A stretch of 64,000 bases of DNA from Mariprofundus sp. KV (GTDB lineage Bacteria; Pseudomonadota; Zetaproteobacteria; Mariprofundales; Mariprofundaceae). A model generated the notes under the pieces. It saw nothing but the letters and a program-made list of their open reading frames with translations. It was not told the DNA's origin and searched no databases. Positions 30,374 to 49,998 of the stretch are shown piece by piece. The translations under genes were made by a program, and so were the position numbers. The DNA lies in contig NZ_VWNB01000005.1 of the NCBI RefSeq assembly GCF_013387475.1, positions 62,001 to 126,000 on the forward strand, written 5' to 3'. Position 1 is the stretch's first letter. Every line of letters begins with the position of its first letter.

Positions 30374-30398
30374 ATAAACGAATGAAGTAGGAGTATTC

Positions 30399-30797: not shown

Positions 30798-30822
30798 TTT
30801 TTCACCTCCTCGAAACTCAATA

Positions 30823-30966: not shown

Positions 30967-31269
30967 ATGATTGAGAAGTTGTTCATCTTTATCGCTATAG
31001 CTACCAGTATCATTGCTTCTGGATTGATTTGGAATGGAACTTTGGATGAACGAGAAGCGGGGTTAGCTACAATTTCAATTGTGATGAACTTTATATTGAT
31101 TGGGGTAGTTCTGTACAAATGGTCTGTTGAAGAGGCAAAAACCTATAGACTAAAATCCTCAGCAGACGAAACTGAAGAGGCGATCGAAGATGCAAGAATG
31201 GGTAATGTTGAGTCATTCTCTAGTATCGCAGACCTGATGAATGATCTTGATTCGAAAAAAGGTTATTGA
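30967..31269 (+). CDS. Small two-TM protein of unknown function
   Basis: 100 aa. Two hydrophobic helices (IFIAIATSIIASGLIW and IVMNFILIGVVLY), then a Lys/Glu-rich cytoplasmic tail. CAGGAG ribosome site. The next gene starts 16 bp after its stop, so a two-gene unit is likely. Confidence 0.5.
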   Translation: MIEKLFIFIAIATSIIASGLIWNGTLDEREAGLATISIVMNFILIGVVLYKWSVEEAKTYRLKSSADETEEAIEDARMGNVESFSSIADLMNDLDSKKGY

Positions 31270-31285
31270 TATTGAGGAGGGATAT

Positions 31286-31456
31286 ATGGAAATAAACCAA
31301 GGAACTGTTGCTCTTGTGATTCTAGCAGTAGTAATGATCTCATTTAAGATTTTTGGTGAGAAACAATACATCAACTCACACAAAGTATGCAGTCAATGTG
31401 ATGAATCAATTAAGATTAAAGCTAATATTTGTAAGCATTGTGGATCTCAGCAATGA
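31286..31456 (+). CDS. Small membrane-anchored zinc-ribbon protein
   Basis: 56 aa from the ATG at 31286 (GAGGAGG upstream). One TM helix (VALVILAVVMISFKIF) and a C-terminal zinc ribbon CSQCDESIKI ... CKHCG. Partner of the two-TM protein by position. Function unknown. Confidence 0.55.
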   Translation: MEINQGTVALVILAVVMISFKIFGEKQYINSHKVCSQCDESIKIKANICKHCGSQQ

Positions 31457-31549
31457 CTGAAAATGTATAAAAATCTCGACTTAGCTTGATAGAGTGCAGA
31501 TTGATTTGTTGGCCAATGAATCGCTATCGTTTCTCTATACACCCCTGAG

Positions 31550-32410: not shown

Positions 32411-32639
32411 ACACCCCTCTCTCGTTTCTCAACTCCGCCCAGTCTGAAAGAGAACATCCATTAAGATGGACAAAATCTGACTGCAGATGCCTGACACATT
32501 ATCAAAGCCCCATCTAACAGAACGTTCTAAAGGGCAACGCTCCCTTTACCCGCAGGATTCCTGAACCAAAGAACTGAATACACTCCGTCATTAAGTTCAC
32601 TTTCTACCGCCGTTCCATGCCAGAAAAATGAACAGTGGC

Positions 32640-32930
32640 TCAATCATGGGAACTACCACCCCTATAAAATGCCACTACTTCTGGATCGCTTCCCCAGCAT
32701 TCTTTTTCCTTCGCAGTAAGGCAAGACTCATCAACTTTTTGCTTACGAGTAGCCGCCTGCTCTTGCAGTTTATAGTATTCTTTTTCTGCAGATCTCCACG
32801 AAGCAGTACCATCCTTCACATCAGGGTATTGCCCCCGAATCCAATCGGCCGCAGCTTCCTTTCCCTCCCGTCTACATCTTTCTTCCACTTCTTTTCCCGC
32901 TTCAATAGCCAACTTTTTAGATACACCCAT
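32640..32930 (-). CDS. Small hypothetical protein, charged and helical
   Basis: 96 aa, rich in Lys and Glu, with two cysteines late in the chain (SCLTAKEKECWG). No signal peptide or domain recognised. GGGAG ribosome site before the ATG. Confidence 0.45.
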   Translation of the reverse strand: MGVSKKLAIEAGKEVEERCRREGKEAAADWIRGQYPDVKDGTASWRSAEKEYYKLQEQAATRKQKVDESCLTAKEKECWGSDPEVVAFYRGGSSHD

Positions 32931-33157
32931 TACTATCTCCCATCAAATTGAAAATAATCACATCATTTTAAGAAACTGGTGCTGCAGTTTCTAAATGCGG
33001 CATTGACTCAGTATTAATCTTAGATGGCCTATTTCACCTTCGAAAATAGCCTTCTAAGCTCTAATATTACCTGCTTCTAGAGTATTCACTCAACCACTTG
33101 CCTTGGTCCGACCCAGAATTCATGTCCGCAGAATTCAATTCCTATAGCTTGTTAGCA

Positions 33158-36100: not shown

Positions 36101-36184
36101 ACGCATATCCGAGAAAGTTGATGATATGAATACTCGAATCTCACGACTCTCATGCTGACCTTTCCCTTGGTTGTTTTCTGCCAT
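33158..36184 (-). CDS. DUF4062 - NACHT/STAND NTPase - TPR - TM protein, candidate immune sensor
   Basis: 1008 aa. A DUF4062 (TIR-like Rossmann) domain sits at about 14-110 (IRVFISSTFSDM ... GMLGERYGW). It is followed by a linker and an NTPase with Walker A GDTGSGKSA (about 300) and Walker B LVALDGV (about 390). A winged-helix/helical region comes next, then kinesin-light-chain-type TPRs of 42 residues (about 720-930) and two C-terminal TM helices (about 950-1005). This order is that of nephrocystin-3-like/STAND signal NTPases. Bacterial relatives include phage sensors in which the repeat region recognises a trigger, the NTPase oligomerises and the N-terminal domain acts. Third gene of an operon with the PGDYG-like and SLOG-like genes (16 bp gap). 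Terminal TM segments suggest membrane tethering. Function inferred. Confidence 0.75.
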   Translation of the reverse strand: MAENNQGKGQHESREIRVFISSTFSDMREERKYLNAHVFPELRQLCEKRGAVFTEVDLQWGINEEDSKQGAAVEICLEEINRCHPYFIGMLGERYGWSPSDDGLTVRKDEEQETDCHIRISNDNLKPKVAKWNEAQESVTAMEIMHGVLENEKQQEFSYFYFRDKAFTQELFDVASAEDSAVKMEVFFEEEDSIKRKKLYELKERIRRKDGDWHVYEHKNDAGAIDTYSSVEELGNQIRDDLLKVINERFPEGEEYSALEKERKFHAAFASSRLEAYIPDEKIFEKINSHFSAEYPIPLVITGDTGSGKSALVSNYVTRWRSSNPEGFVIEHYAGTGGESDAEGVLLRVMSEIKEYFKIEDDLPKDTNEIYSKFAEWMLRIPKDAPYLVALDGVNQLRGKDGELKRFIHSFPTHGHLLMAMLPGETLDAARERKCAVENVEPLNEVDRRRLAEGYLARYKKDKGLGDLLDTLISHKHASNPLFLRVILDELRLDANHDTLKPMLDDYLSSQNLVNLFGKVLKRCESTYTKSHVKEVLTLIYAARYGLSEAELLDICHEESGHHVPQIYLASLVFGMGGYLAGREGLYGFMHDALRQAVEKKYALADKEGTLSIELNTARKEIVAYFQKLDEPTQRQVDELPWQLVHLDSKMQLQGYLAKLDVFLLFEKRNNGDIELFGYWNAAGCNQHKMLARYQTQFKDDDGHLRSTLGDFYNFCGFYREAESLHREALAIRRELLGEKDEDVASILHNLALVLRARGKHTEAEVLHREVLAIFRELPGEKHVDVASSLGALADTLLVQGKHTEAEVLHREALAILREFLSEKHVDVAANLTGLALVLHAQGKHSEAESLHREALAILRELLGEKHVDVARSLTGLALALHAQDKHSEAESLHREALAMSSELLGDKHEDVVRNQAALVRVLHAQNKHREAEAMNLKTLSMLRKLADEKSFPVRIAVIIILFFITLIRAGVLWWLVPLERMIRLNIRFIPAILVLLLILLGPILSAG
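33390..34025 (-). repeat. 126-bp tandem repeats coding the TPR array
   Basis: Five full 42-codon units and one partial. Units around 33480-33750 are nearly identical at DNA level, showing recent expansion or gene-conversion. Copy number is probably variable between strains. Confidence 0.85.
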
Positions 36185-36200
36185 GATTTTCCCCTAAAGC

Positions 36201-36635
36201 TTATTCGATTATCTGATATGTTTTTTCAAAGATAGATTGGCTGACGATGCCATAATCATCTTTGCCATACTGTAATAGCCAGTCGCCCTGTTTTCCCTCA
36301 AGACGACCTGAACCCCAGTTCACATCCACATAGAACGGCTCCTGCATCTGCAGGGCGTGAACCACGATCGGCTTCTTGGTGTAAGTGCCATTTTCCCCCG
36401 CCCTGATGGGCAATATGGGAGTATAGGTCTCATTGAATCGAGCGCGCTTAATCGGCCAGCGTTCCCCTTCAACGCCGGTCAGAATGGCATCGCCCGCATG
36501 ATAGGAAACATCTCCCTCAAGGGTATTGCAGACCCCATCTTCCGTCGCGAATACAACTCTGACTCCCACAGGCTTTTTCATCACCCTAATCGACCATTCA
36601 GCGTTAATGAGGTCTATCTCATTTCCACACAGCAT
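36201..36635 (-). CDS. PGDYG-like protein in the SLOG/STAND operon
   Basis: 144 aa from the ATG at 36635, one base after the SLOG-like gene's stop (TAAATG), chosen over an upstream start that would overlap it by 71 bp. The C-terminus GDWLLQYGKDDYGIVSQSIFEKTY fits the PGDYG family pattern (DYG then Phe-x-x-T-Tyr) often found next to nucleotide-signalling genes. The N-terminal half has repeated VxxxxGD and RWPIKRARF strands, a small beta domain. No signal or TM. Likely a sensor or adaptor between the two large proteins. Confidence 0.55.
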   Translation of the reverse strand: MLCGNEIDLINAEWSIRVMKKPVGVRVVFATEDGVCNTLEGDVSYHAGDAILTGVEGERWPIKRARFNETYTPILPIRAGENGTYTKKPIVVHALQMQEPFYVDVNWGSGRLEGKQGDWLLQYGKDDYGIVSQSIFEKTYQIIE

Positions 36636-36636
36636 T

Positions 36637-38346
36637 TTAATCTTTACTCTCGACAGATTCGAACAGATCCATCTGCTTATGCATGTCGACCCAAGCGGCT
36701 TGTTCATGCAATATAGCCCTTCCTAGTCGAAGAGAGACTGCCGAGGCCATCTCCCTGTCTCCAGCCAAATCTCCACTATAGTTCTCAAGCTGCATATTCG
36801 CACGACTATAAAACCCAAGGGATGATTCATACCAATCTGCCTCTGCCTCAATTTGTATAGCACTAGCATATCTCGAAACAACCAGTGAAACCGCTATCGG
36901 GATTACGATGAATAGACCAAGAAGCCAATCAGGAACACATGCTAACTGCCAAGTTTCAAGGGGCATAAATTGCAAAAGCATATCCTTCAATTGTTGTATG
37001 AATTCAGGTGGATGGTCAACTTCCATTTTGGTAAGCCCTAAATAGGTAGCTAATCCAACACCCACTCTTAAAGGCCATTTGCCAAGAAACTGACTCCAAA
37101 AAACCATATTTTTATAGCTTTTAAATTGCTGCTTATAGCTGGTCTCACTTCCCTGAATTTTCCCCTCTAAATATTTCTTCTGATCTAGTAGCCAGCCATG
37201 CCTAATAAAGTCGATACGTGATTTAGAGAATGGTGTTTTCTGGCGATTATATGGTAAAATGGCATGTATCCCCCGCATAGCCTCAATAATCCATCCTAAC
37301 TCTTGCTTTTGCTTGGCAGGGTAATAATCAATCACTGAGGACTGAAGCCCCACCATGAACCACGCAGCCTGGATACGAATCCCTTCTGCAAGTGAACGAT
37401 ATTGCAAATGAAGAAGGTGATGTTTTTTCCGCCCAAAAAACCAAGATAACAGCCACGCAAACATGGCAAAAAGAACAAAACCAAGATTCCAGTGCCATGA
37501 GGCATCCTCAACACGGTCAAAATATACAAAGCACACCATAGCGATAGCGGCAATTACTGACAGAATTGTGAAATTCCGAAATGAATGTTCTTGAGTGCTA
37601 TTAGCTAAGGTGTTGGCTGAAGCATAAATATCAGCCAGTAACTCTACACCTTCTTGTTCCGATGACTCCAAAGCCGGACGGCTTGTCAGCAGTACTTCCA
37701 CATTATCATCATTCTTTTCTTTAATCTCATTCTGAGCGAATAAAAACCATTTACGACCATCGCTCCACACCTTGGATGTCATTTCTAATTGAGATTTTTC
37801 ATTAAAGTCATTAATTGCCCTCAGGCTTCGTATAGCATTCTTATAAAAACCATCTTCATCTGACCCAGTATCAGAATCAGGTTTCGATGCAGCTTCCCAC
37901 TCTCTCGCCCAATCAAACTCTGCCACTTCTTCCAAGTTCCAGAGAATCAGGGAATTCTTTTCCTGCAATACAGGCACTTCTGGAATCAACGAGTCTTCAA
38001 CACTTGCGCCTGTATAAAGGTGCCCCAGTTCACTGTTAAGCATACGATTCTGAAGCTTTTCACTATCCACTGGGTTAGAGCCAGTGAGCAACACATGTGC
38101 ATGCCTTAAGATATAGGCTGAGATCAATTCGCCTTTGATTGCTTCTTCCTGATTTTGGAAAAGCACATCTACGGATGCCACATGTATCTGGTCTGGCAAT
38201 GCTAACGCCTTCTTATCAGCATCAGAAATTAACAGATAGATTGAGGAATAAGCACATGTTTTCTCTATCTTTTCAAGCGCATCGCCTAACACACTTGGGG
38301 CTATATCCCCAATAACCCCAACAACAATTGGAATATTCCGAACCAT
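36637..38346 (-). CDS. SLOG-like nucleotide-binding domain fused to four TM helices (SLATT/S-4TM-like)
   Basis: 569 aa, first gene of the operon. The N-terminal Rossmann-like domain begins VVGVIGDIAPSVLGDAL and continues through AYILRHAHVLLTG and a late NSLILWNLEE strand. This is the order of SLOG-family nucleotide-sensing domains. After a linker, TM pairs lie at about 258-300 (FTILSVIAAIAMVCFVYF, WNLGFVLFAMFAWLLSWFF) and 416-486, with a soluble helical part between, as in SLATT/S-4TM pore-type effectors of the nucleotide-centred conflict systems. It would be the membrane effector, triggered by a nucleotide or by the STAND partner. Remote similarity judged by eye only. Confidence 0.6.
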   Translation of the reverse strand: MVRNIPIVVGVIGDIAPSVLGDALEKIEKTCAYSSIYLLISDADKKALALPDQIHVASVDVLFQNQEEAIKGELISAYILRHAHVLLTGSNPVDSEKLQNRMLNSELGHLYTGASVEDSLIPEVPVLQEKNSLILWNLEEVAEFDWAREWEAASKPDSDTGSDEDGFYKNAIRSLRAINDFNEKSQLEMTSKVWSDGRKWFLFAQNEIKEKNDDNVEVLLTSRPALESSEQEGVELLADIYASANTLANSTQEHSFRNFTILSVIAAIAMVCFVYFDRVEDASWHWNLGFVLFAMFAWLLSWFFGRKKHHLLHLQYRSLAEGIRIQAAWFMVGLQSSVIDYYPAKQKQELGWIIEAMRGIHAILPYNRQKTPFSKSRIDFIRHGWLLDQKKYLEGKIQGSETSYKQQFKSYKNMVFWSQFLGKWPLRVGVGLATYLGLTKMEVDHPPEFIQQLKDMLLQFMPLETWQLACVPDWLLGLFIVIPIAVSLVVSRYASAIQIEAEADWYESSLGFYSRANMQLENYSGDLAGDREMASAVSLRLGRAILHEQAAWVDMHKQMDLFESVESKD

Positions 38347-38508
38347 CCCCCCCCCTTTTTATGAATCCACTGAATGTCACCTATTAGTAGCAGTAGTGTA
38401 TAGCACCCAGCTTGCCAAAGGCGACTTTGCCTAAGTCTGGATGAATTTGAAAGTTGGATTATCGAGAGCTTTTTTCGTCAACCTATACATTCCATTAGTG
38501 AATTATTT

Positions 38509-38744
38509 CTACTCCTTAAGAAGCACTGCATGCATAGCATCCGCAATGCGTGGATTTCCCATCAGGGTGTTAAGCAAACCTGTCTCCGGCTTCGGGGTTT
38601 CATTGATCTTCGACAAGGTGTGAGCAAAGGTCTCCCCCAACAAAAAGGCCATGGAGAGGTGCTGATAGTCATCCCCGATGTAATCAGGGTGATATCCCTG
38701 ATCTCCTCCTCTTTATTTTTTGTCTCTGCGATAGTGATTTCCAT
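38509..38744 (-). pseudogene. Small gene apparently split by a frameshift
   Basis: The ATG at 38744 has AAGGAG upstream and opens MEITIAETKNKEEEIRDI, a plausible protein start. That frame then becomes Trp/Cys/Arg-rich and non-globular. One frame over, an open stretch reads YIGDDYQHLSMAFLLGETF, then ETGLLNTLMGNPRIADAM, and ends LLKE at 38509, protein-like and hydrophobic-patterned. Joining the two frames near 38690 gives one coherent protein of about 75 aa, so an indel is likely. A programmed shift or sequencing error cannot be excluded. Confidence 0.45.
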
Positions 38745-38765
38745 GCACTTCTCCTTCCATTGATG

Positions 38766-38900
38766 TCAGCCTTGAAAAGAGACACCCATCGCCATCACCG
38801 AAGCAATCAGGAAAAGAAAAACAAACAGTGCCGGTGTCAGGTGAAGCCAGGTGACTGAGCATCCATTCTCAGCTTCAGGGTTTGAATCGTGATTGACCAT
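38766..38900 (-). CDS. 44-aa single-TM protein
   Basis: Starts MVNHDSNPEAENGCSVTW, one TM helix (LTPALFVFLFLIASVMAMG). GGAGG ribosome site 5 bp upstream. 21 bp before the frameshifted small gene, so both may form one unit. No known family. Confidence 0.5.
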   Translation of the reverse strand: MVNHDSNPEAENGCSVTWLHLTPALFVFLFLIASVMAMGVSFQG

Positions 38901-38935
38901 CTCATCCTCCTTTTGATCACCAACCAATTAAGGTG

Positions 38936-39505
38936 CTATTTACCCAATATGGCATTTCTAAAATTCCAAGCTGCAAACAGTTCACACAGATGCATGGTGT
39001 TAGAGATATGAACCACCCCATCTTCCGGAGACAAATCATCGGCAATCTTGCTCACTAGATATGTCTGATAGCTGTTTGAGAAACCACCCTTGTCTTTAAT
39101 CCACCCATGCGTTTGATCGTTTTCCATGAAAAATTCAAACCACCTAGACATAGAGACTTCGCCATCCATTCTCCCAGCCTCATTTATCACATAGTTAACA
39201 ACTTCCAGGTTTTGTGGACTGGTTCTATAGCTACCGGCACTGTTTTTGGCTGAGCCATAAAATTCAACATCTTGTTCAAAGATCTCAGGTATAATTTCAG
39301 CGCACTGCTGAGATATCGTTTTTGCTCTTTCAGGCATGTTAAATACCTCTTTCCCTCTGCCATCCCAGGCAGAACATAAAGAGTGATACTCTTCTGGAAG
39401 CTGATCACACGCCTGCTGTATGCTCATGCTCTCTTCTGCTCCAGATGTCATCGGAATAAGCAGCAAAAAAAGGAGGGTATTCAGCCCTTTAAATAACATT
39501 TTCAT
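38936..39505 (-). CDS. Secreted protein of unknown function
   Basis: 189 aa from the ATG at 39505 (AAAGGAG upstream; an in-frame start at 39565 lacks one). Signal peptide MKMLFKGLNTLLFLLLIPMT followed by SGAEES. Four to five cysteines in the mature part could form disulphides. Ends in a helical segment. Mature part resembles nothing I recognise. Shares orientation with the neighbouring lipoprotein gene. Confidence 0.5.
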   Translation of the reverse strand: MKMLFKGLNTLLFLLLIPMTSGAEESMSIQQACDQLPEEYHSLCSAWDGRGKEVFNMPERAKTISQQCAEIIPEIFEQDVEFYGSAKNSAGSYRTSPQNLEVVNYVINEAGRMDGEVSMSRWFEFFMENDQTHGWIKDKGGFSNSYQTYLVSKIADDLSPEDGVVHISNTMHLCELFAAWNFRNAILGK

Positions 39506-39623
39506 ATGAGACTCCTTTATTGTCAGGTGATGAAAAATCCAGGGATCAAGAGTGTTGATCACCATTTCCGAAGACGCCCCCTCCAGCTACACGACTGCAA
39601 CCGGAGAGGGCATTTATCAGAAA

Positions 39624-41312
39624 TCAGATAGCTCCATTCTTTTTCAAAAAGGCGGCGAAATCATTTTCGCCCATTCGATAAACAGTCTCCAGCAGAGCCT
39701 GTCCTTTCACGGATACACCTTTTTCCACAAGCTTCTTTACAATGTCCAATCGTTTGTAACGGATCAATTCCTCAATTGTGTACTCTCCAATATTAAGTAG
39801 AGAGTTTTTCACACCCGCATTAAGCAGGTAGTCGACCATTTCCTCAGAGCCAAGCTTGCAGTACCCATCTCTCCTGAAAACCTTCTCATAACTCAATGCC
39901 TCCAGCGCATAATAGAGTGGATCGTCGATCCAGCTATGTGTACGCTCTTCAATTCGCTTATAACGATGAGTCGTAGTTGTATGATGATGTGTCCGTGTGT
40001 CCAGAGTCGCCCCGTGAGCAACAAGGTATTTAACCGCTTCCAACTTCCCTGAAGCCACTGCAGTAGAAATGGCGCTTCTGGGACCATAAAAATCTGGTTT
40101 TACAACATTAACCTTCAACTCTTCCACGAGAAACTTTGTCCAGTCACTGATTTCATCTTTACCACACGACACCGAGGTGATGAGCTGCCTTCTTAAGTCC
40201 TCTTGCGAAACAAACTTCTCAGCATCTTTCCCAAGATAGCCCCTTAGAAAACGCATCATGTCAGATGATTTCTTATTAAAAGCATTACTATATAAACTTC
40301 CAAGAACCTTTTTATCAGGATTGAAGCTCTTGATTTCCTTCTCAAGCAGATCAATCCAGCCCAGCTCTGCAAGGGGTTCAAGAACATCTACTTTGTGAAA
40401 TGAGCCTTTTTCAATAAGGAGTGCGACCTTTTTACGATTGAGGCCCTCCTTTTCGCTTCCTTTTTCAACATAAATTAGGCTTCCGATCGGGTCACGTTTA
40501 TGCAACAGACCTGGATATGTATCCAGCAAAAGCTCAAACGTCTCTAATGAGGCATTGTGTAAATCTACAATCGAGGATAATTCCTTGATCGCGTTCTCCA
40601 ATAATTCAGGATGTTTTAGCAGCCAGCGAAGCTTCTCATCTGACAACTGCATAAAACGATAATCACGATTATGAGCGTTTCTATGGAAACTTTTGTATTC
40701 GAAATCCGGATTGCCACCAGCCTCCAACAATGCATCCAGAGACTCAACAGGGGCCTCAGCAACAATCATGGTCCAGTCACCATCGCTCAATTCTGTCGTG
40801 TTCTGAATAACCCATTTCACCTTATCCTCGGATAGGTCCTTCGGATACATAGGAAGCGTCTTGAAGTCAGGTAGCTTTTTGGCTGCATCCCAGCTTTGCA
40901 GTTTTGCTAATGGGAAGTTTTTGATCAGCCCCCACAGATCCGCCTCAGAAACTGTAGCGCCACTGTCGATAAGAGCCGGAACAAATGTATGCATATTCTT
41001 CTTGTTTACAGCTTCTAAGATCAAACCTTGTGGCACATTAATTCCATTTGCGAGCATGTAATCCATACATGCCCCTTTTTGATCAACCGCAGCAACTGCA
41101 TTAAAGTAGTTCCGGGACTCCAGTTTCACTTGCTTTTCATTTTGGATATATTCAACCACATCCATTTTTCCGGACGTACAGGCAGCTGCAATAACACGCT
41201 GCGGAGAAGCCCCCTCCTCCAAAGCTTTCTTGGCATTTTCAACATCCTCTGAGGCTGAGCACCCCGTCAGCAGTGCCATAGCGACTGAAGCAATGATAAA
41301 TCTTTTTTTCAT
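39624..41312 (-). CDS. Ankyrin-like repeat lipoprotein
   Basis: 562 aa from the ATG at 41312 (AAGGAG 7 bp upstream). Lipobox LLTGCS at Cys17, so lipid-anchored and periplasmic-facing. The chain has degenerate ankyrin-like repeats from start to end (ACTSGKMDVVEYI, ASGKLEAVKYLVAHGATL and others). Possible envelope interaction protein. A second ankyrin gene of the island lies at 31550-32410 but is cytosolic. Confidence 0.6.
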   Translation of the reverse strand: MKKRFIIASVAMALLTGCSASEDVENAKKALEEGASPQRVIAAACTSGKMDVVEYIQNEKQVKLESRNYFNAVAAVDQKGACMDYMLANGINVPQGLILEAVNKKNMHTFVPALIDSGATVSEADLWGLIKNFPLAKLQSWDAAKKLPDFKTLPMYPKDLSEDKVKWVIQNTTELSDGDWTMIVAEAPVESLDALLEAGGNPDFEYKSFHRNAHNRDYRFMQLSDEKLRWLLKHPELLENAIKELSSIVDLHNASLETFELLLDTYPGLLHKRDPIGSLIYVEKGSEKEGLNRKKVALLIEKGSFHKVDVLEPLAELGWIDLLEKEIKSFNPDKKVLGSLYSNAFNKKSSDMMRFLRGYLGKDAEKFVSQEDLRRQLITSVSCGKDEISDWTKFLVEELKVNVVKPDFYGPRSAISTAVASGKLEAVKYLVAHGATLDTRTHHHTTTTHRYKRIEERTHSWIDDPLYYALEALSYEKVFRRDGYCKLGSEEMVDYLLNAGVKNSLLNIGEYTIEELIRYKRLDIVKKLVEKGVSVKGQALLETVYRMGENDFAAFLKKNGAI

Positions 41313-41385
41313 GCAAAAACTCCTTTTCATTATATTGATTGATGATTTTTAGACATATTTGGCTGGTATAGCCTTGTTCAATGGA

Positions 41386-42015
41386 TCACTCGTATACTTG
41401 TAACTGCTGCAACTGAGATTCCCGCCATTCACGGTGTCTTTTCCTGAATTCGGGGCCAACGAAATATTCAAATGCGATTACCATCATTGTACTTCTGGCA
41501 AGGTTTGGACGAAACTCCGAAACCCTTTCAGTTCCATTCCAGTGCTTATATGTTTCCGAAATGGTAGTGGTATAATAAATGGGTATATCTCGTCCACGGA
41601 TTATCCCGGATTTGTGTATGTACTCGAACATATATCGGTTATTAACCCTCTCTTCGGGAGACAGGCTGGTGAGATCCGTCAGTGGCTCACTTGAAGCCCC
41701 CGGAAATGTACTTTCAAAAAAGCTGTCCGGATCATTAAAATACTTCTTTGGTTGTTGTAGAGGTGCTAGGCAGCCTTTTCTAATCAACTGAGTCAGATCT
41801 GGAACCTCTTTTCCCACATCCTCCCTCTTTACAGATGTGACCAAATAAGCCCTGATGGAATTACAGCTCTCAACGAGATCGGACACATCAAATGGATGTT
41901 CAGCCACCTCTTCGGCAACCGCATTTCCATTTGTAATCAGACATACCGCTATTGCGAGAAGACATGTCGCTATAGCAAGGCATTTGAATCGTTTAATCAC
42001 TGCACGATTACTCAT
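41386..42015 (-). CDS. Secreted or membrane-anchored protein of unknown function
   Basis: 209 aa from the ATG at 42015, preceded by AAGGCGAG and overlapping the stop of a small upstream ORF. An alternative TTG start at 42081 would lack a ribosome site. N-terminal basic residues plus CLAIATCLLAIAVCLITNGNA make a signal peptide or anchor; the rest is soluble with no recognised domain. It has one of the island's dyad promoters (42169-42197). Confidence 0.5.
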   Translation of the reverse strand: MSNRAVIKRFKCLAIATCLLAIAVCLITNGNAVAEEVAEHPFDVSDLVESCNSIRAYLVTSVKREDVGKEVPDLTQLIRKGCLAPLQQPKKYFNDPDSFFESTFPGASSEPLTDLTSLSPEERVNNRYMFEYIHKSGIIRGRDIPIYYTTTISETYKHWNGTERVSEFRPNLARSTMMVIAFEYFVGPEFRKRHREWRESQLQQLQVYE

Positions 42016-42088
42016 ACTCGCCTTCTTTAATCCTTCTTTCGGTACGTGCGCGCCCACTTTCCGGACCAATGATAATTTCAATCCTCAT
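42008..42088 (-). CDS. Putative 26-aa leader ORF coupled to the secreted protein gene
   Basis: ATG at 42088 follows AGGAGGGGGAGT, a near-ideal ribosome site. The ORF (MRIEIIIGPESGRARTERR...) ends with TAA inside ATGAGTAA, overlapping the next gene's ATG at 42015. This is a translation-coupling layout. Whether the peptide has a role is unknown. Confidence 0.4.
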   Translation of the reverse strand: MRIEIIIGPESGRARTERRIKEGEYE

Positions 42089-42168
42089 ACTCCCCCTCCT
42101 GAATTAATTTCCCGCTAAACAGCGCCTAAACTTCAATCAGGAGCCATTTAACTAACGGGTTATAAGGA

Positions 42169-42197
42169 ATGTTATTTAGATCATGGACAAAAACTGT
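42169..42197 (-). promoter_or_regulatory. Dyad-type promoter before the leader/secreted-protein genes
   Basis: Plus strand GGACAAAAACTGT (42185-42197), then 10 bp to TAACAT (42169-42174) on the gene's strand. Lies just past the dnaB-like stop codon. Confidence 0.6.
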
Positions 42198-42201
42198 ATG
42201 G

Positions 42202-43581
42202 CTACTGCTGCGAATCAAAACGGAGGTATTTACGTGCAAAATTCAACGTCACTCTGCCAACCGGTCCATTGCGCTGCTTTGCAATAACAACCTCGGCTTT
42301 AGCCTGCTCTTCACCTTCATTGTCAGAGCATACAAACATCAACACGTCAGCATTCCGCTCTACAGCGCTGTGTTCCTTGATCTTAGACATCACTCTTCGA
42401 CAATCCAATGGTGTTGGTCTATCCAGATCATAGTTAAAGCGGGAAAGAACGATGACAGGTACATTTAGCTCTTTTGCCAACTTCTTTAGTGATTTCATAA
42501 TACGGGAGATTTCCTGTTCATCCTCCGCTGAACCTTCCTGGGCTATCATAAGCTGAAGGTCATCGATCAGTATCAGATCGAGTCCCCTGTTTTCGCGCTT
42601 GAGACGACGGCATTTGGAACGTATTTCCATAACGGAGATGGCCGTATTATCGCCTATATGTATTTTTGACTCAGCCAAAGAACCACTGGCGGCTGCAAGC
42701 GCGCGCCAGTCATCGGGGGTAAAACGTCCGGTTTTGAGAGACTGCATATCCACGCGGGCCTCTCTAGCCAGCATACGCATGGCGATCTCCTGGCTAGAAT
42801 TGTCCAGTGAGAATGACGCAACCACGCCGGAGTCATCACCCTTGGCGCGAAGAGCGGCATTGGCAGCCAGATTCATCAGGAGGCTGCTTCTGCCCATGCC
42901 TGGCTGGCCGGCAATAATAATCAGCTCGCCGCGCTGTAAACCCGAGGTCATCTCATCCAGCTCCTCGAAACCTGTAGTAATACCTGTAACGACCTCCTTG
43001 GAGGCGAAACGATCCTCCAGCTCTTTGTAGCTCTGCAGCATCAGGTCGGACATTTTGGCAAAGAAAGGGCGTGAGCGGTTAAACTTTTCGGCAATGGCCA
43101 GAATATTACTCTCTGCCATATCGAGATGTTCATTCACATCTCGGTCTGTCTCTTCGTAAGCATCGCGGAAGACGCCACTACAGACAGAGAGCAGGTCACG
43201 CATGGCTGAGCGCTCGCGAACAAGATCAGCGTAATATTTTACATTGATGGAACTAGGAGCAGAAGTGACGAGATCAGCCAGATAGGCTTCGCCACCGATT
43301 GAGGCTAGTTCGTCACGTTGTTCGAGATGATCTTTGATCGTAAACGCATCAACCGGTTGGCCGCGCGCAGCCAGCTCCTGAATGACATGGAATATCTGGG
43401 CATTGGGCTCTACATAGAAGTGTTCAGGCTGCAGTGAGCCCTCCAGTCGTTCCAGTGCCTCGGCATCAAGCATGATTCTCCCGAGCACCGCCCGCTCAGC
43501 ATCAAATGAACTAAAGTACACTAGACTCCCTAGAGCATATCCATTATCGGCATGCTGCTTCACTTGCTTGTTGTTGGTCAT
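42202..43581 (-). CDS. DnaB-like helicase with degraded ATPase motifs
   Basis: 459 aa with DnaB architecture. The N-terminal domain (about 25-135) binds primase in DnaB. The C-terminal RecA-like domain (about 190-455) shows altered key positions. Walker A is GQPGMGRSS (Lys replaced by Arg) and the usual SLEM Glu is Asp (FSLDNS). DYLQLM is DDLQLM and LSQLNR is LSRFNY. KQRNGP near the end is kept. A working helicase is therefore doubtful. It may be a specialised or dominant-negative paralogue that joins host DnaB rings, or a helicase for the island. It has its own dyad promoter. Confidence 0.85.
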   Translation of the reverse strand: MTNNKQVKQHADNGYALGSLVYFSSFDAERAVLGRIMLDAEALERLEGSLQPEHFYVEPNAQIFHVIQELAARGQPVDAFTIKDHLEQRDELASIGGEAYLADLVTSAPSSINVKYYADLVRERSAMRDLLSVCSGVFRDAYEETDRDVNEHLDMAESNILAIAEKFNRSRPFFAKMSDLMLQSYKELEDRFASKEVVTGITTGFEELDEMTSGLQRGELIIIAGQPGMGRSSLLMNLAANAALRAKGDDSGVVASFSLDNSSQEIAMRMLAREARVDMQSLKTGRFTPDDWRALAAASGSLAESKIHIGDNTAISVMEIRSKCRRLKRENRGLDLILIDDLQLMIAQEGSAEDEQEISRIMKSLKKLAKELNVPVIVLSRFNYDLDRPTPLDCRRVMSKIKEHSAVERNADVLMFVCSDNEGEEQAKAEVVIAKQRNGPVGRVTLNFARKYLRFDSQQ

Positions 43582-43637
43582 TGCCCCCCCCCGGCACTCC
43601 CCCTCTGATTTCCTCAGGGATTATTTTCATGCCGATC

Positions 43638-43668
43638 AGGATAAATCACGCCTGGACAAAAACTGTCC
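43638..43668 (-). promoter_or_regulatory. Dyad-type promoter of the dnaB-like gene (best operator copy)
   Basis: GGACAAAAACTGTCC at 43654-43668 is a perfect GGACA-N5-TGTCC palindrome. On the gene strand it is followed after 10 bp by TATCCT (43638-43643). Confidence 0.65.
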
Positions 43669-43681
43669 TGCAGAGGTTTTT

Positions 43682-44599
43682 TCATTGATATAAGCGCGTC
43701 AGGATTTCACCTGCACCATCAGCCAAAAGCTGATCGGCCAGCTGCCGCCCAAGGCTCTCAGCTTCACTTATTGGGCTACGAATCTCTTTTCGGATAATGC
43801 GTGATCCATCCAGTTCACCGACCAGCCCATCAAGATGCAGCTCATCGCCATTCACTGTTGCGAACGCGGCAATCGGCACTTGGCATCCACCCTCAAGGCG
43901 GGCAAGAAAGGTTCGCTCTGCAACTGTTCGCACCATCGTTTCATGATCGTTCAGACGATCGACCAGCGTATTGAGTTCATCGTCTCTATCGCATGTTTGG
44001 ATACCTAGGGTTCCTTGAGCCACAGCCGGTAATAGTGTCGCAGTGTCCACAAAGTCATGCATCTGTTGTTCCATGCCCATACGGCGAACACCGGCTGCTG
44101 CCAAGATCACAGCATCCACGCTATCACCAAGCTTGGAGAGTCTTTTCTGGATAGTTCCCCGGATAGGCACATATTCGAAATGCGGATAGTGATGTTTAAG
44201 CTGAGTTATACGCCTGAGTGCTGATGTACCAATACGTGCCCCTTCTGGCATTGTATCCAGTCCTCCGCCAGTCACGGTTGCCACGGCATCACGCGGATCC
44301 TCACGTTTTGGAAAAGCTCGAATCGAGGTGCCCGCTGGAAGCTCGACAGGGACATCCTTCATCGAATGTACAGCGATATCAGCATCACCATTGAGAAGTG
44401 CAAGGTCGATCTCTTTGGTAAATAAGCCCTTGCCCCCAATTCGTGCAAGAGGAACATCGGTAAAGATATCCCCGCTGGTCTTGATCTTGATCAGCTCGGT
44501 AGTGATCTCGCTATCAAGCTTCTTCAGCTCTGCAGCAACATACTCTGCTTGCCACAGGGCCAGCGGTGATCTCCGTGTTGCGATTCTGATATGAGTCAT
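43682..44599 (-). CDS. hemC: Porphobilinogen deaminase (hydroxymethylbilane synthase), island copy
   Basis: 305 aa, full length. Joins four porphobilinogens into hydroxymethylbilane for haem and sirohaem. Active-site features are kept: HSMKDVP (catalytic Asp), RIGTSALRR, RLEGGCQVPI with the cofactor-binding Cys. The conserved RGNxxTRL is RGTIQKRL here, and PAVGQG is PAVAQG. hemC is normally a backbone gene, so its place inside the repeats is unusual; it may be a second copy or the only one. Own dyad promoter. Confidence 0.92.
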   Translation of the reverse strand: MTHIRIATRRSPLALWQAEYVAAELKKLDSEITTELIKIKTSGDIFTDVPLARIGGKGLFTKEIDLALLNGDADIAVHSMKDVPVELPAGTSIRAFPKREDPRDAVATVTGGGLDTMPEGARIGTSALRRITQLKHHYPHFEYVPIRGTIQKRLSKLGDSVDAVILAAAGVRRMGMEQQMHDFVDTATLLPAVAQGTLGIQTCDRDDELNTLVDRLNDHETMVRTVAERTFLARLEGGCQVPIAAFATVNGDELHLDGLVGELDGSRIIRKEIRSPISEAESLGRQLADQLLADGAGEILTRLYQ

Positions 44600-44641
44600 G
44601 GGTTTCTCCGTTACTTTTCTCCCCGTAGGGGCAATATGGAG

Positions 44642-44670
44642 ATTTTGCAGAGGTTCAGGACAAAAATGGT
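44642..44670 (-). promoter_or_regulatory. Dyad-type promoter of island hemC
   Basis: GGACAAAAATGGT (44658-44670), 10 bp, CAAAAT (44642-44647) on the gene strand. About 45 bp before the hemC ATG. Confidence 0.6.
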
Positions 44671-44710
44671 TTATGGCAGAGGGTATCTGGCTTCATCACA
44701 ACAGTTCGAA

Positions 44711-45451
44711 TTAAAGTTCCACAACCATCGCTGGGTTAAACATACGGTTCTCCCAGCCTCCAAGAGAGTTCGGATTCCCTCTCGGATTACAGACCACCCT
44801 TGTGTTGCCAATATGATAATCGAAGCAGTTATGGGTATGCCCGTGTACCCATAGATCAATACCCGGCATCAACGCTTCCATATCTGTAATGAAGCACGGG
44901 GTCCAGGGATTATTCATGTATTGCGGGTGCAGGCTTTTTAAGCTTGGCGCATGATGGGTTACAACCACTGTCTTTCCATCAAACGGCCGCTGTAGTGCTG
45001 AACGCAGCCACGCACGATTTTTCTCAAAATATTGCTGTTGATGCTCAACCGAAAAGTGAGTCGGCGCGCTACCCGGTGAATACTCGACAATGATGTAGTC
45101 ATGATCGCAGTAGAGCACGGAGCCAAAGTTGCTCAAATCAGTCCACATCGTCGAAGCCAGAAAGCGTACACCTCCTATCACGGTCTCCTCATTATCCAAC
45201 ACAATGACATTTGATCCCGATGCCGCATCTTTTATAGCATCTAAATGTTCGATCATTGTAGAATCAGAATCGTGAAATTCGTGGTTGCCGCACACATAGA
45301 CCACCGGCACCTGAAATTTATCGATTGCCCAGGTTACGCCTGCAACACCTTCCGCAATATCGCCGGCCAGGAGAACTACGTCAGCATCCGTTTGCGGGGC
45401 TTGGAATGGTGCATTCTCAAGGTGGATATCGGACAGAATATGTAACTTCAT
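44711..45451 (-). CDS. Calcineurin-type metallophosphoesterase
   Basis: 246 aa. Metal-site motifs in order: SDIHLE (residue 7), AGDIAEG, CGNHEFHD (about 55), VVTHHAPS (about 165) and WVHGHTHNC (about 202). All five family blocks are present, so two metal ions and phosphoesterase activity are expected. Substrate (nucleotide, cyclic nucleotide, protein) unknown. No dyad promoter upstream. If the SLOG operon uses a nucleotide signal, this could be its off-switch, though the genes are 6 kb apart. Confidence 0.85.
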   Translation of the reverse strand: MKLHILSDIHLENAPFQAPQTDADVVLLAGDIAEGVAGVTWAIDKFQVPVVYVCGNHEFHDSDSTMIEHLDAIKDAASGSNVIVLDNEETVIGGVRFLASTMWTDLSNFGSVLYCDHDYIIVEYSPGSAPTHFSVEHQQQYFEKNRAWLRSALQRPFDGKTVVVTHHAPSLKSLHPQYMNNPWTPCFITDMEALMPGIDLWVHGHTHNCFDYHIGNTRVVCNPRGNPNSLGGWENRMFNPAMVVEL

Positions 45452-45636
45452 GGAAAACTCCGCTTCAATGGAAAGTGAAAAGCCCTCCCCCTCTATGAGA
45501 CCTCAATGGGTGGAGTGTTGAACTTGACGCACAGGAAACGAATCAAACCATCCAGATAGCAGGGAGAGTGGAGTTTTTTCTAACAGTGCATCAGCTTCGA
45601 TTCACTGCCCATAGAAGCTCCACCCTCCCCCTAGTA

Positions 45637-45757
45637 TTAACCTACTGGCTGAGCCTGCCTATAGCGCATGACACCTTTGATGAGTCGATAGACGTACCAG
45701 ATTGAGACCGCGACCATTGCAACCTGCAGCACCACCAGTATCCCTCTGCTAGAAAAT
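45637..45757 (-). pseudogene. C-terminal fragment of a DUF4870-like membrane protein
   Basis: Between a stop codon at 45755-45757 and the TAA at 45637 the frame reads MVAVSIWYVYRLIKGVMRYR, very similar to the C-terminus of the intact 122-aa protein at 46838-47206 (VAASVWYIYRIAKGWMRFSD). No start or N-terminal two-thirds is present. A decayed duplicate. Confidence 0.6.
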
Positions 45758-45802
45758 TAGTGTGAACAGACCTATAACCCTGTCATCATCGCAGGTGGCT
45801 GG

Positions 45803-46654
45803 TTAACTTCCGTGAAACTCCAGATTCAAGCCGCGAAAATCGCCCGTTGAAAAAGCAGCCAACACTCGTAATAGGGGCATATCGCTGGATGATTCAATCG
45901 AAACGCCGAACTCATGCCCCCCATCCACAAAATCCCGGAATGCTGTCGCCGCTTTTTTCTCGTTCCCCTGAGGAGCTCGCTGAACCTTCCTGTTTAGTTC
46001 TGATAAGATCTGGTCACGATCCTTATGATCCTGTCTTTCATACATCGCAAAACCGCTTTCAACCAAGCCATCATTCTCAAATTTCAGACCGGCTGACAGT
46101 AGCTTAGCCCTCTCCAGCGACGCCACCAGCTGCCTCGGATTCTTCAAAAAGTCGAGAGAGGCCTTCAAAGATAGCTTGCCTGAAACCTTGCCCAGTTCAT
46201 CCATGGCGATGCTCACATCCTGAATATTCAGGATCTTGTCGGCAGGGGAGTATTTATAGGTAACATTCAAGTCCCCCTGAATGTCTCGGTAGCCCATTTG
46301 ATACAATAGCGAGAAGTCTTTTTTCATCCTATCTTCTGTCATCGCCAGTTCATAGCCATTGAAAGAGACGGAGCCATAGGTCGGCAACTCCCCTTTCTTT
46401 AGCGCTTCACGATCAACAGAACTAACCACAACTTTATCAAAGGTGATATCACCTGCAGAACCAATCACAACATGATCAAAAGTCACACCTCCAAACAAAC
46501 CGACGCTAACATCATCGTAACGCACCTGCTGACTCACACCCTGGCTTTCCAGTGCTGCACGCACCTGCTTATCCACAACCTGATCGGCGTACACCTTGTA
46601 ACCAATTAATGCTGCACAAACGATGCCGGCACCAACCCATACCATTTTCTTCAT
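45803..46654 (-). CDS. Exported protein, DUF945/AsmA-like
   Basis: 283 aa. An N-terminal anchor or signal (MVWVGAGIVCAALIGYKVYA) leads into a periplasmic part with beta-strand pattern FDHVVIGSAGDITFDKVVV, like DUF945 or a mini AsmA fold. Own dyad promoter (46714-46728), although the -10 fit is poor there. Confidence 0.5.
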   Translation of the reverse strand: MKKMVWVGAGIVCAALIGYKVYADQVVDKQVRAALESQGVSQQVRYDDVSVGLFGGVTFDHVVIGSAGDITFDKVVVSSVDREALKKGELPTYGSVSFNGYELAMTEDRMKKDFSLLYQMGYRDIQGDLNVTYKYSPADKILNIQDVSIAMDELGKVSGKLSLKASLDFLKNPRQLVASLERAKLLSAGLKFENDGLVESGFAMYERQDHKDRDQILSELNRKVQRAPQGNEKKAATAFRDFVDGGHEFGVSIESSSDMPLLRVLAAFSTGDFRGLNLEFHGS

Positions 46655-46697
46655 ATACCCTCTCCTATTTTGAATTGAGCAATTAGCTCTTAATTTA

Positions 46698-46728
46698 AAA
46701 CTCTCACCCTCGAAAACAAAAACTGTTT
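46698..46728 (-). promoter_or_regulatory. Dyad element upstream of the DUF945-like gene
   Basis: AAACAAAAACTGTTT (46714-46728) is a palindrome (AAACA-N5-TGTTT). The hexamer at the -10 position (GAGTTT, 46698-46703) is weak, so the actual start may use TTTAAAT nearby. Confidence 0.4.
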
Positions 46729-46837
46729 GATAAGGGACCTGTTTATTTATTTTATCGGATCAACCGACATTTCATTCGGTCATGACGATCAGTGAAACCA
46801 CACTCATCGGCATCCTTATTGCAGTCAGATGAGGCGC

Positions 46838-47206
46838 TCATGCATACATCTCTTTTCCATCTGAAAAGCGCATCCAACCCTTGGCAATGCGGTAGATATA
46901 CCAAACCGAGGCCGCTACGAGCACAACCATCCCAACCACAATAAACAGAGTGGCGAAACCAATGACAGTCCAAAGAAGATAAAACCAGAAGGTCCTTATT
47001 TGCCAACGGAAGTGTGATTCCAGCCAGGTTCCCTGCACGTCATCCTTTCTCATATAATTGACAATGACCGCAGCTATTATCGGTACTAGCAGGAGTACTC
47101 CTGCCGCCTGCAGAGCATATACGATCATTGTGATTTTCTTGTTTGATTTAGCTTCCGCGTCCTCAAGCTGTTGCGCTTGATCAACTGAAATAACTTCTTC
47201 ACTCAT
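46838..47206 (-). CDS. DUF4870-like small membrane protein
   Basis: 122 aa with three TM helices (about 27-50, 68-95, 95-112). The characteristic HFRWQIRTFWFYLLW (about 64-80) matches the DUF4870/Tic20-like family. Function unknown. A decayed second copy is at 45637-45757. Dyad promoter at 47275-47303. Confidence 0.65.
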   Translation of the reverse strand: MSEEVISVDQAQQLEDAEAKSNKKITMIVYALQAAGVLLLVPIIAAVIVNYMRKDDVQGTWLESHFRWQIRTFWFYLLWTVIGFATLFIVVGMVVLVAASVWYIYRIAKGWMRFSDGKEMYA

Positions 47207-47274
47207 TATTTTCTCTCCTTGAATAAGTCTTAATTACCTTCATCTGAATAGATTGCGATGTCGGAATAAGTGGA

Positions 47275-47303
47275 AAGTTATTGAGGAGTCGGACAAATAT
47301 GGT
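47275..47303 (-). promoter_or_regulatory. Dyad-type promoter of the DUF4870-like gene
   Basis: GGACAAATATGGT (47291-47303), 10 bp, TAACTT (47275-47280) on the gene strand. Confidence 0.55.
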
Positions 47304-47361
47304 ACATGTGATCTGACTAACACCCCTCTGATGAAGTGCTATGAGTTGGCCTGAAAACAGG

Positions 47362-47392
47362 AAACTGTTTTTGTCCGTTCATATGCAAAGAT
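47362..47392 (+). promoter_or_regulatory. Dyad-type promoter, rightward, before the 86-aa gene
   Basis: Reads AAACTGTTTTTGTCC on the plus strand (47362-47376), 10 bp, then AAAGAT (47387-47392). It has the same orientation relative to its gene as the minus-strand copies. The -10 match is modest. Confidence 0.5.
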
Positions 47393-47434
47393 TCCACGAT
47401 TACACAGCACGCTAACGACAACAGGGAGACTTAG

Positions 47435-47695
47435 ATGAGTGAGTTTGCACATCCTCCGATACACGCTGGTGATGGTTATCGTTATGTCCGATTATCGGAG
47501 ATGCACCAGGAAGAACGTATCTATGTTGAGGCCTTCATGTATGGAGGAGCCCATCCTGTGCCTGATGACTCTATAATGGATGCAATTTACCTATGGGATT
47601 ACCAGAACTGGCTCGGCTGGAAAGAAGCAAATGGGAGAGAATGGCGTACAAATGCAAAGCAAAGGTGGCGATCTCGATTAAGGAACTTGACCTAA
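47435..47695 (+). CDS. Small hypothetical protein
   Basis: 86 aa with GGGAG ribosome site. Rich in Trp, Tyr and Arg (DAIYLWDYQNWLGWKEANGR), soluble, with no recognised domain. Preceded by the rightward copy of the dyad promoter. Confidence 0.5.
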   Translation: MSEFAHPPIHAGDGYRYVRLSEMHQEERIYVEAFMYGGAHPVPDDSIMDAIYLWDYQNWLGWKEANGREWRTNAKQRWRSRLRNLT

Positions 47696-47824
47696 CCATG
47701 TAGAGATTAAATCATCGGGCTATCCTGCATTGCATGCATCAACATTAAATACAGTAATTGTCTTATGACATGAAAGTATCGGCGGCAATTTGATTGAACA
47801 AACAGACAAGGAGCATAAGCCAAA

Positions 47825-48772
47825 TTGAAAAGTGAATATTCCCGCAATGTACTGCTGATAGCCCTTGCCGTTCGCTTGCAGCGGTTGGTCAAAAACCTGC
47901 CGAACAACCATATTTCAGCAGAACGCATATCGGTGAAAAGTCTTGCTGAGTTCTATCTCTCGGAAGAGGTATCCAAGAGCTCAGAAGCCGCCAGAAAAAA
48001 AGCCAGTCGGTACATGCAGGAGATGGACAGGGTCTTCGGTCTATCCGGTTCCGAGAAGAGTGGCTATGTCATGGCCAAAAAGTTTCATACATTCAGAGAG
48101 ATGTTCCAATTCTGGCTTGATGCAATCAACCCTCCCGGCAAAGACGACAAACGACTGCATGTCATGCTCAATGGTCTACTCCATGCGATAGATAATGCTT
48201 TCACGGAAGATCCCGTTGTGATTCCGAATCTGGCAAAAAAACTGAAAGAGAAATATGGCAATAAGAATATTCGGGATACCAAAGAACCCTTAACCGAGAT
48301 GTTTGACAACACCTATATCGGAAGCTGGCTTCAGCTCGTTGAGATGGATGAAGACTCGCTGGCTATTGACCCCGCAATGGATCCTTTGCTCCTGCGTCGT
48401 CACTCATATGCAGATGTTGGTGGAAACCCCGATATTTCTATCAAGCTCGCAAGGCCAGGACGCATTCATGTGATCTTTGAGAAGACGGTATCTGATCTCG
48501 ATAAAAGTTTTGTCGAAGTTTGCAGAAAAGCAGCCACTGCAGTCCATGATTCGGAAATATTGATTATCGATGGAGAGGCATTGCTGCCCTATATCCTCTA
48601 TCGGGAAGGTTCAACCGGGGAGGTTATGCTTACCCTCAGGAACCTGAAACAAGATCATTTCGAGGACAAAGTACTAAACCAACTTACAGGGCAATTCCAA
48701 TCGGGAAGACAATACATCCCGTACAGCCTGGATAAATGCACCTGGACCGCATTCCAGCGACTTCTCAATTGA
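47825..48772 (+). CDS. Hypothetical protein paired with an M48 peptidase
   Basis: 315 aa from a TTG start with AAGGAG upstream. Helical N-terminal half (about 1-150) and an alpha/beta C-terminal half (SILIKLARPGRIHVIFE-like stretch near 205 and EILIIDGEALLPYILY near 245). No signal peptide. WYL or nuclease motifs looked for and not found. The stop overlaps the peptidase gene by one base (TGATG), so the proteins are co-translated and probably interact. Confidence 0.45.
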   Translation: MKSEYSRNVLLIALAVRLQRLVKNLPNNHISAERISVKSLAEFYLSEEVSKSSEAARKKASRYMQEMDRVFGLSGSEKSGYVMAKKFHTFREMFQFWLDAINPPGKDDKRLHVMLNGLLHAIDNAFTEDPVVIPNLAKKLKEKYGNKNIRDTKEPLTEMFDNTYIGSWLQLVEMDEDSLAIDPAMDPLLLRRHSYADVGGNPDISIKLARPGRIHVIFEKTVSDLDKSFVEVCRKAATAVHDSEILIIDGEALLPYILYREGSTGEVMLTLRNLKQDHFEDKVLNQLTGQFQSGRQYIPYSLDKCTWTAFQRLLN

Positions 48773-49299
48773 TGGCGATCATCTTCTATTTCACATTGAT
48801 CATCGCAGCAGCCTTCATGTTAATTGTAACCCAGCTTGTCTGGGCATGGAGGAGACTGAAAAGGCATCCACATGTCGAAATAGTAGAGCTTGCCAAACCT
48901 GAAATTTCCGCTGAGTTAAATACGCTGGTTGAAGTGGTTGCGAACACTGCAGGGGTTGCTCCTCCTCAACTCTATGTTCGCCGCGCATCACTGCCAAACG
49001 CCTTTATGATTGCTGCAATCATCCGACCTGAGCTCTACCTGACAGATGAACTGCTAGAGCATTGCGACTCCAGAGACGATGGGTTGAATCATTTAACCCA
49101 AACTATTTGCCACGAAATAGCACATATAAAACGTGGTGATGCAATCAGACTCGGTTTTCTAACCTGGGTGATGCATACGGCATCATCCCTTTCCATACAC
49201 TCAGTAGCTAAGTCAGTTCTGCTAAAGATCGATTCGATAGAGGTTGCCGCAGACAATGAGGCATCATTTCTGTATGCCCGATTAAACGAAAAAGGCTGA
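48772..49299 (+). CDS. M48-family membrane metallopeptidase, short
   Basis: 175 aa. N-terminal TM helix (IIFYFTLIIAAAFMLIVTQLVWAW), then an M48 domain with the zinc motif HEIAH (about 114) and a likely third ligand in the SIEVAADNEA helix (about 160). HtpX and Ste24 are longer with four or more TMs, so this is a minimal form. It would cut membrane or nearby substrates; a co-expressed target or regulator is the upstream 315-aa protein. Confidence 0.7.
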   Translation: MAIIFYFTLIIAAAFMLIVTQLVWAWRRLKRHPHVEIVELAKPEISAELNTLVEVVANTAGVAPPQLYVRRASLPNAFMIAAIIRPELYLTDELLEHCDSRDDGLNHLTQTICHEIAHIKRGDAIRLGFLTWVMHTASSLSIHSVAKSVLLKIDSIEVAADNEASFLYARLNEKG

Positions 49300-49339
49300 C
49301 GATCACAACCTCATATTTCACTCTCGTGATGACGATTGA

Positions 49340-49462
49340 TCAAACACGTTCGATTGCAGAGTGCTCTGCTACAGAGTCATACTTTCCACCAACATGAAAC
49401 ACCTCTAAGTATGCCACTGCCATCACGAACAATACTCCCAGTGTAATTAGCAATATTCTCAT
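49340..49462 (-). CDS. 40-aa single-TM protein, copy 2 of a paralogous pair
   Basis: MRILLITLGVLFVMAVAYLE then a short tail with GGKYD; AGGAGGTG ribosome site. Pairs with 30672-30797. The two loci also share promoter and spacer sequence, so the duplication included the control region. Confidence 0.6.
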   Translation of the reverse strand: MRILLITLGVLFVMAVAYLEVFHVGGKYDSVAEHSAIERV

Positions 49463-49487
49463 TTACTCACCTCCTTGAAACTCAATG

Positions 49488-49516
49488 ATTATAAGAGTCA
49501 GAGGGACAAAAATGGT
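49488..49516 (-). promoter_or_regulatory. Dyad-type promoter upstream of the 40-aa TM gene
   Basis: GGACAAAAATGGT (49504-49516), 10 bp, perfect TATAAT (49488-49493). The cleanest -10 of the set. Confidence 0.65.
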
Positions 49517-49946
49517 TTATATGGTGATGCTGTATCCAGTTTTAAACGGTGAGGGATGCCACCACATAAAGACAAAAAGGGATGTCCTAATCATTGCCAA
49601 CAGGCAATGTACGGTGGCGTTTCAAGGACTCGAATCCCAGACACTCGGATCATAAGACTAAACGACCACGATTAAGCCAATCGACGTGATTGAAAGCATT
49701 CAACTATTGACGTTCCTTTTGAAATTCTTTCGAATCCGACTATTGATGGTTTGGCATATTATTGGAATAACATTGGCAACAAATTGACTTTACATTAGCA
49801 CAAAATGCCACCTTTACGTTCGTGGACTAAAATGGGCTAGGATGTGCTTATCGGGAGGCTATTACAGATGCCCGAAGGTCAGAAAAAGCCCATATAAAAC
49901 AAGCTCTAATTGCATAACACCATTTAACAACATAGCATTCGCACGA
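49517..49946. other. Non-coding right end of the island
   Basis: No gene seen. It contains a 7-bp hairpin (CATTGCC/GGCAATG, 49592-49609) and TGCCCGAAGGTCA at 49869-49881, which repeats the core of the att site and of the left-end inverted repeat. Probably recombinase binding sites. Confidence 0.5.
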
Positions 49947-49998
49947 GCTCATAACCCGAAGGTCGTCGGTTCAAATCCGGCCCCCGCAACCAAACATA
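49947..49998 (+). repeat. attR: 52-bp direct repeat (tRNA 3' remnant)
   Basis: Same 52 bp as 21780-21831. It contains the 3' 46 bases of the initiator tRNA without promoter, D arm or 5' acceptor strand, so it is not a functional tRNA. Confidence 0.95.

Follow-up and report, generated by a model that had tools for sequence, protein, structure and literature searches.

A gene that we call dnaB2, located at positions 42202 to 43581 on the minus strand of the window (the whole 64-kb stretch of DNA analyzed here), encodes a 459-residue paralogue of the replicative helicase DnaB. Judging from its sequence, we estimate a probability of 0.85 to 0.9 that this product is a DnaB protein with a defective motor that is maintained by selection.

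The open reading frame, its Pfam domains, and its alignment to the backbone dnaB of the same genome together define the gene. An N-terminal domain (NTD, residues 25–169; E value 1.4e-31) and a RecA-like C-terminal domain (CTD, residues 199–457; DnaB_C, 1.6e-75) are both complete and are joined by a linker (residues 170–198). The replicative DnaB model TIGR00665 gives a score of 402.9, which lies above the curated cut-off of 385.25 and places the protein in this full-length family. The source genome (G000; 2.53 Mb, 28 contigs) holds exactly one other good match to dnaB2. This is the backbone dnaB, which lies on the same contig (C24:14117-15421) beside rplI, is 68% identical to dnaB2, and has intact motifs. 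The backbone gene is the replicative helicase, and dnaB2 is therefore a paralogue. The initial annotation had also called dnaB2 a paralogue, a view that depended on another dnaB being present in the genome, and the intact copy adjoining rplI provides it. In each of the 22 congeneric genomes compared, the top-scoring match is a dnaB of the backbone type; any further match is either a fragment or a DnaB-like gene that matches much more weakly. So far, dnaB2 itself is known from one genome only.

Altered and retained motifs

Alignment with the backbone copy bears out the motif changes that had been noticed on first reading. In the following, “Gst” numbers refer to Geobacillus DnaB, as assigned from its alignment to dnaB2, and all coordinates are on the minus strand. 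The Walker A segment GRPSMGKTA reads GQPGMGRSS (residues 226–233, QPGMGRSS, at 42883..42906; Gst R211Q, S213G, K216R, T217S), and the GxxxxGK[ST] pattern is thus broken by the change of Lys to Arg in GQPGMGRS. The segment FSLEMS reads FSLDNS, wherein the catalytic Glu is replaced by Asp at residue 260 (42802..42804; Gst E241D, E. coli E262) and the adjacent Met by Asn (M242N). In the Walker B region, IDYIQLM becomes IDDLQLM (residues 340–345, DDLQLM, at 42547..42564), with Gst D320 kept and the following Tyr changed to Asp (Y321D). Further along, LSQLNR becomes LSRFNY, such that residues 380–387 (42421..42444) read SRFNYDLD in place of SQLNRSLE (Q362R, R365Y).

The loop that contacts DNA (residues 399–410, 42352..42387) carries six changes: D379K, R381K, S383H, G384S, Q388R, and D389N. 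Contacts to DNA are made by Gst R381, E382, and G384 (PMC6391071), and dnaB2 has K402, E403, and S405 at these positions, so that the Glu alone is kept. In contrast to these losses, the trans-acting K-Q-R finger (residues 435–437, 42271..42279; Gst K418, Q419, R420), whose Lys and Arg complete the ATP site of the neighboring subunit (PMC6391071), is retained as K435 and R437. The surrounding KQR-GP motif is likewise kept; the backbone copy reads KQRQGP and most orthologues read KQRNGP.

The altered Gst positions K216, E241, Q362, R365, R381, and G384 are invariant among 30 relatives and six actinobacterial DnaB proteins. The motif changes are therefore not sequence noise. In an alignment of 30 orthologues, dnaB2 departs from the consensus at 53 of the 209 columns that are invariant among its relatives, mostly in the motor, whereas the other rows depart at 0 to 4 such columns and a single row at 10. 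By domain, 47 of 148 invariant sites are changed in the CTD compared to 7 of 69 in the NTD and linker (Fisher p 0.0006). Changes in the CTD concentrate in the P-loop and the block 385–424 (27 of 46, versus 20 of 102 elsewhere in the domain), although these blocks were chosen post hoc. About two thirds of the invariant CTD sites are kept, and retention of the three finger residues is not by itself statistically striking. An AlphaFold2 prediction made with six relatives yielded a poor model (mean pLDDT 49.5, pTM 0.36).

An island at tRNA-Met and the origin of dnaB2

The gene lies within a DNA interval of about 28.2 kb (21777..49998) that is bounded by a 55-nt direct repeat (21777–21831 and 49944–49998). 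The downstream copy corresponds to the 3′ part of tRNA-Met (21751–21825) and is 98% identical. GC content is about 0.40–0.50 between the repeats compared to about 0.54 outside. In the nearest relative (G001), slyD directly follows the same tRNA-Met, as expected for an empty site. Therefore, the interval is an integrated island. In another genome (G012; L082 1081-7143), two intact tRNA-Met copies at this site enclose a different set of genes spanning about 6 kb, which suggests that the site is an integration hotspot. The tRNA was the sole Rfam match.

Island genes encode tyrosine-recombinase-like proteins, an integrase, an HD-domain protein, ankyrin proteins, a metallophosphoesterase, and others. 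Two large tyrosine-recombinase-like open reading frames and a third, small one form one overlapping block at 22090–27384. We considered a gamma-mobile-trio (GMT-type) island and rejected it: NCBIfam returned only generic XerA/XerC matches and no gmt model. A 141-nt direct repeat (30711–30851 and 49376–49516, 86%) carries a minus-strand open reading frame of about 40 codons in each copy. A DUF4062-NTPase-TPR protein (DUF4062-STAND-TPR; 33158..36184, minus strand) is a probable defense gene based on family matches and on the literature, in which DUF4062 proteins are reported as antiphage NADases (PMC13174449). The product of 36637..38346 (minus strand) gives a weak, sub-cutoff SLATT match. Scanned against PADLOC models, dnaB2 has no strong match; the best is mad8 (34 bits), located in the P-loop region and reflecting the shared ATPase fold. 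None of the island proteins scanned was recognized as a member of a replication initiator, primase, or SSB family, and so the suggestion that dnaB2 is an island replication factor finds little support. We regard dnaB2 as probable island cargo carried beside defense genes.

The neighboring gene, hemC2 (43682..44599, minus strand), encodes a second hydroxymethylbilane synthase in addition to the backbone hemC (G000:C7:24033-24944). It is about 67–71% identical to hemC genes of the genus, is under purifying selection, and retains what we take to be the catalytic residues of HemC. Its dS is saturated against every hemC gene of the genus in the comparison, and its acquisition was therefore probably a separate event from that of dnaB2.

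Phylogenetic analyses indicate that dnaB2 is derived largely from the replicative dnaB of a close relative. In the NTD tree it groups with G000, G001, and G012 (support 94/95) on a short branch of 0.21, whereas in the whole-gene tree its terminal branch is 0.86 long compared to a median of 0.034. Because its dS of 1.5 is well above the value of 0.39 between the dnaB genes of G000 and G001, dnaB2 predates the split of these two genomes, although G001 lacks the island. The simplest reading is that the gene was captured in a close lineage and then arrived with the island. We rejected the idea that the CTD came from a distant DnaB, as residues 262–340 are about 80% identical to the G000 and G012 copies while plasmid and phage matches reach about 40%. 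However, dnaB2 shares clade-specific states up to residue 306 and shows ancestral ones from residue 336 on, and the gene may therefore be a mosaic with an older or recombinant C-terminal third. Synonymous identity also drops along the gene (p 0.03).

Upstream of dnaB2 lies the perfect dyad GGACAAAAACTGTCC / GGACAGTTTTTGTCC (43654..43668, minus strand; 73 nt before the start codon), the window's single perfect GGACA-N5-TGTCC. This agrees with the original description of it as the best copy of an island dyad, and the shared upstream element is indeed common to several island genes. Specifically, seven island genes, dnaB2 and hemC2 among them, have the element ACNRTTTTTGTCC (up to two mismatches) 58–104 nt upstream in gene orientation. 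The element is recorded at positions 32468, 42185, 43654, 44658, 46714, 47291, 47364, and 49504, mostly at this spacing from an island gene. The island has five exact copies and the flanking core (34 kb) has none. When up to two mismatches are allowed, the island count is 13, versus 4.5 expected (maximum of 10 in 40 shuffles). A second exact copy, ACAGTTTTTGTCC (42185..42197, minus strand), lies downstream of dnaB2, where it precedes the gene at 41386–42081. A sigma-70 scan found no promoter at the dnaB2 element, where the match is poor and no matching –10 is evident.

A G9 homopolymer (43584..43592, minus strand) precedes the dnaB2 start codon by 2 nt and is a candidate slippage site. Another G9 tract (38347–38355) abuts the start codon of the gene with the SLATT match, and these two tracts are the only G/C homopolymers of at least 8 nt in the window. 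Slippage at these tracts could vary translation and possibly cause phase variation.

Selection and possible action on host replication

The two halves of dnaB2 have evolved at different rates. Compared to the host copy, the NTD has 81% identity and a dN of 0.10 (dN/dS 0.105), which is near the value of 0.067 between the host orthologues of G000 and G012. In contrast, the CTD has a dN of 0.315 versus 0.017 for the same orthologue pair. Its dN/dS of about 0.13–0.18 is rough because dS is close to saturation (NTD dS is about 1). No stop or frameshift was seen in the reading frame. Three pairwise NTD values put the dnaB2 branch at an estimated 0.7 or so synonymous changes per site, and neutral simulations at K of 0.5–0.8 produced means of 10.7–14.1 stops, with at least one stop in every run. 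Therefore, dnaB2 has been maintained while its motor half was changed. Conservation, rate, and tree analyses thus agree with the initial annotation that the ATPase motifs are altered and the N-terminal domain is kept.

Given these characteristics, we tentatively favor a role for dnaB2 as a dominant-negative or regulatory subunit that acts on the host replisome, and we place dominant-negative action on replication slightly short of even odds. At the level of sequence, selection has kept the half of the protein that forms the N-terminal ring and binds partners, while the motor half has lost the residues needed to hydrolyze ATP and to grip DNA. The product presumably still adopts the DnaB fold and may still bind nucleotide. 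E. coli DnaB R231C, altered at the position of dnaB2 R226Q, reportedly forms hexamers and binds nucleotide without hydrolysis. DnaB2 could join rings of host DnaB or occupy DnaB partners such as the primase or the loader, which in this host is of the DciA type. Co-assembly followed by stalling would be the most likely action, because the ring-forming parts and the trans-acting finger are kept: DnaB2 would offer its Lys/Arg finger to the neighboring subunit, but its own site would not fire, and so rings containing it would be expected to stall. Expression would then lower or block DnaB-dependent replication.

Such a protein would most likely serve as a conditional brake on phages and other elements that depend on borrowed host DnaB. 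Its gene would be held silent or adjusted through the shared upstream element, to which the G9 tract may add a further control. A more specific version, wherein dnaB2 is a natural dominant-negative helicase and the island uses this disarmed, possibly G9-phase-variable copy to halt DnaB-dependent replication under attack by a phage or rival element, is somewhat unlikely. More generally, a DnaB kept by selection with its motor disabled would point to helicase poisoning as a means by which islands control replication.

Replacement of the Walker Lys by Ala (K234A) abolishes the ATPase activity of Caulobacter DnaB (PMC9825169). In E. coli DnaB, K236A and E262A were combined to silence the ATPase, and K236A alone leaves high residual activity (PMC8213410). 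Because of this residual activity, and because Arg and Asp are milder replacements than Ala, some hydrolysis by DnaB2 may remain.

The dominant-negative role must be weighed against the possibility that DnaB2 has become a scaffold with a new task, such as priming or island maintenance. Its own rings or NTD assemblies would then bind an island protein, primase, or the DciA loader, leaving host DnaB unpoisoned. The near-normal rate and high identity of the NTD, the presence of a DciA-type loader in the host, and the conservation of block 262–340 are consistent with this idea. However, replication or priming genes were not recognized in the island, and a protein of this kind would not need to lose DNA-loop residues so specifically. 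Thus, we regard it as unlikely.

Still less probable is that dnaB2 is a captured duplicate that has decayed under relaxed selection and is now functionless. Its occurrence in a single genome, its long branch, its many changes at otherwise invariant sites, and the poor sigma-70 match are all expected of such a gene. Yet the absence of stops and frameshifts where neutral drift predicts about 11–14 stops, the low dN/dS values in both domains (with dS near saturation), and the clustering of changes in the motor domain speak against decay. Least probable is an active NTPase of altered specificity or rate whose changed loops bind another polymer: the K-to-R, T-to-S, and E-to-D changes are conservative, the Walker B Asp and the finger are kept, and E. 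coli K236A retains activity, but Q362, R365, R381, G384, and others were lost together, and Caulobacter K234A is without ATPase activity.

Comparison with known DnaB proteins

Compared to replicative DnaB (TIGR00665), dnaB2 is alike in its homology over the whole length, its NTD-linker-CTD layout, its Walker B Asp, and its K-Q-R finger. It differs in the Walker A Lys, the catalytic Glu, the Gln and Arg of LSQLNR, and the Arg and Gly of the DNA loop, and in being an island-borne second copy. The DnaB of SPI-7-type islands (NF040583) is likewise encoded on an island, but dnaB2 scores 328 with this model, half the curated cut-off of 655. Similarly, its score with the phage DnaB model (TIGR03600) is 342.7, below the curated cut-off of 498.65.

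Partial searches of phage, plasmid, viral, and genome collections revealed no close relative of dnaB2 and no second dead DnaB, and so no independent recurrence in the collections covered. The other extra DnaB-like genes of relatives, where readable, have the Walker A Lys. In a viral scan, the Arg form of Walker A (CGN codons only) matched two contigs, neither in a DnaB frame, whereas the Lys form matched at least 120 stretches.

DnaB copies borne by mobile elements are known to substitute functionally for the host protein. For example, P1 Ban has helicase activity and can both replace host DnaB and mix with it. Like dnaB2, P1 Ban and other phage or plasmid homologues are mobile-element DnaB proteins that exist alongside a host dnaB. 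However, they are about 40% identical to dnaB2, which is closest to the DnaB of its own host and has broken motor motifs. The same two positions altered in dnaB2 were changed to create the ATPase-dead DnaB proteins used in the laboratory (E. coli K236A/E262A, Caulobacter K234A; PMC8213410, PMC9825169). Those carry engineered Ala residues, whereas dnaB2 has natural Arg and Asp plus many more changes, and a motor-disabled DnaB maintained by selection would be the natural counterpart of these reagents.
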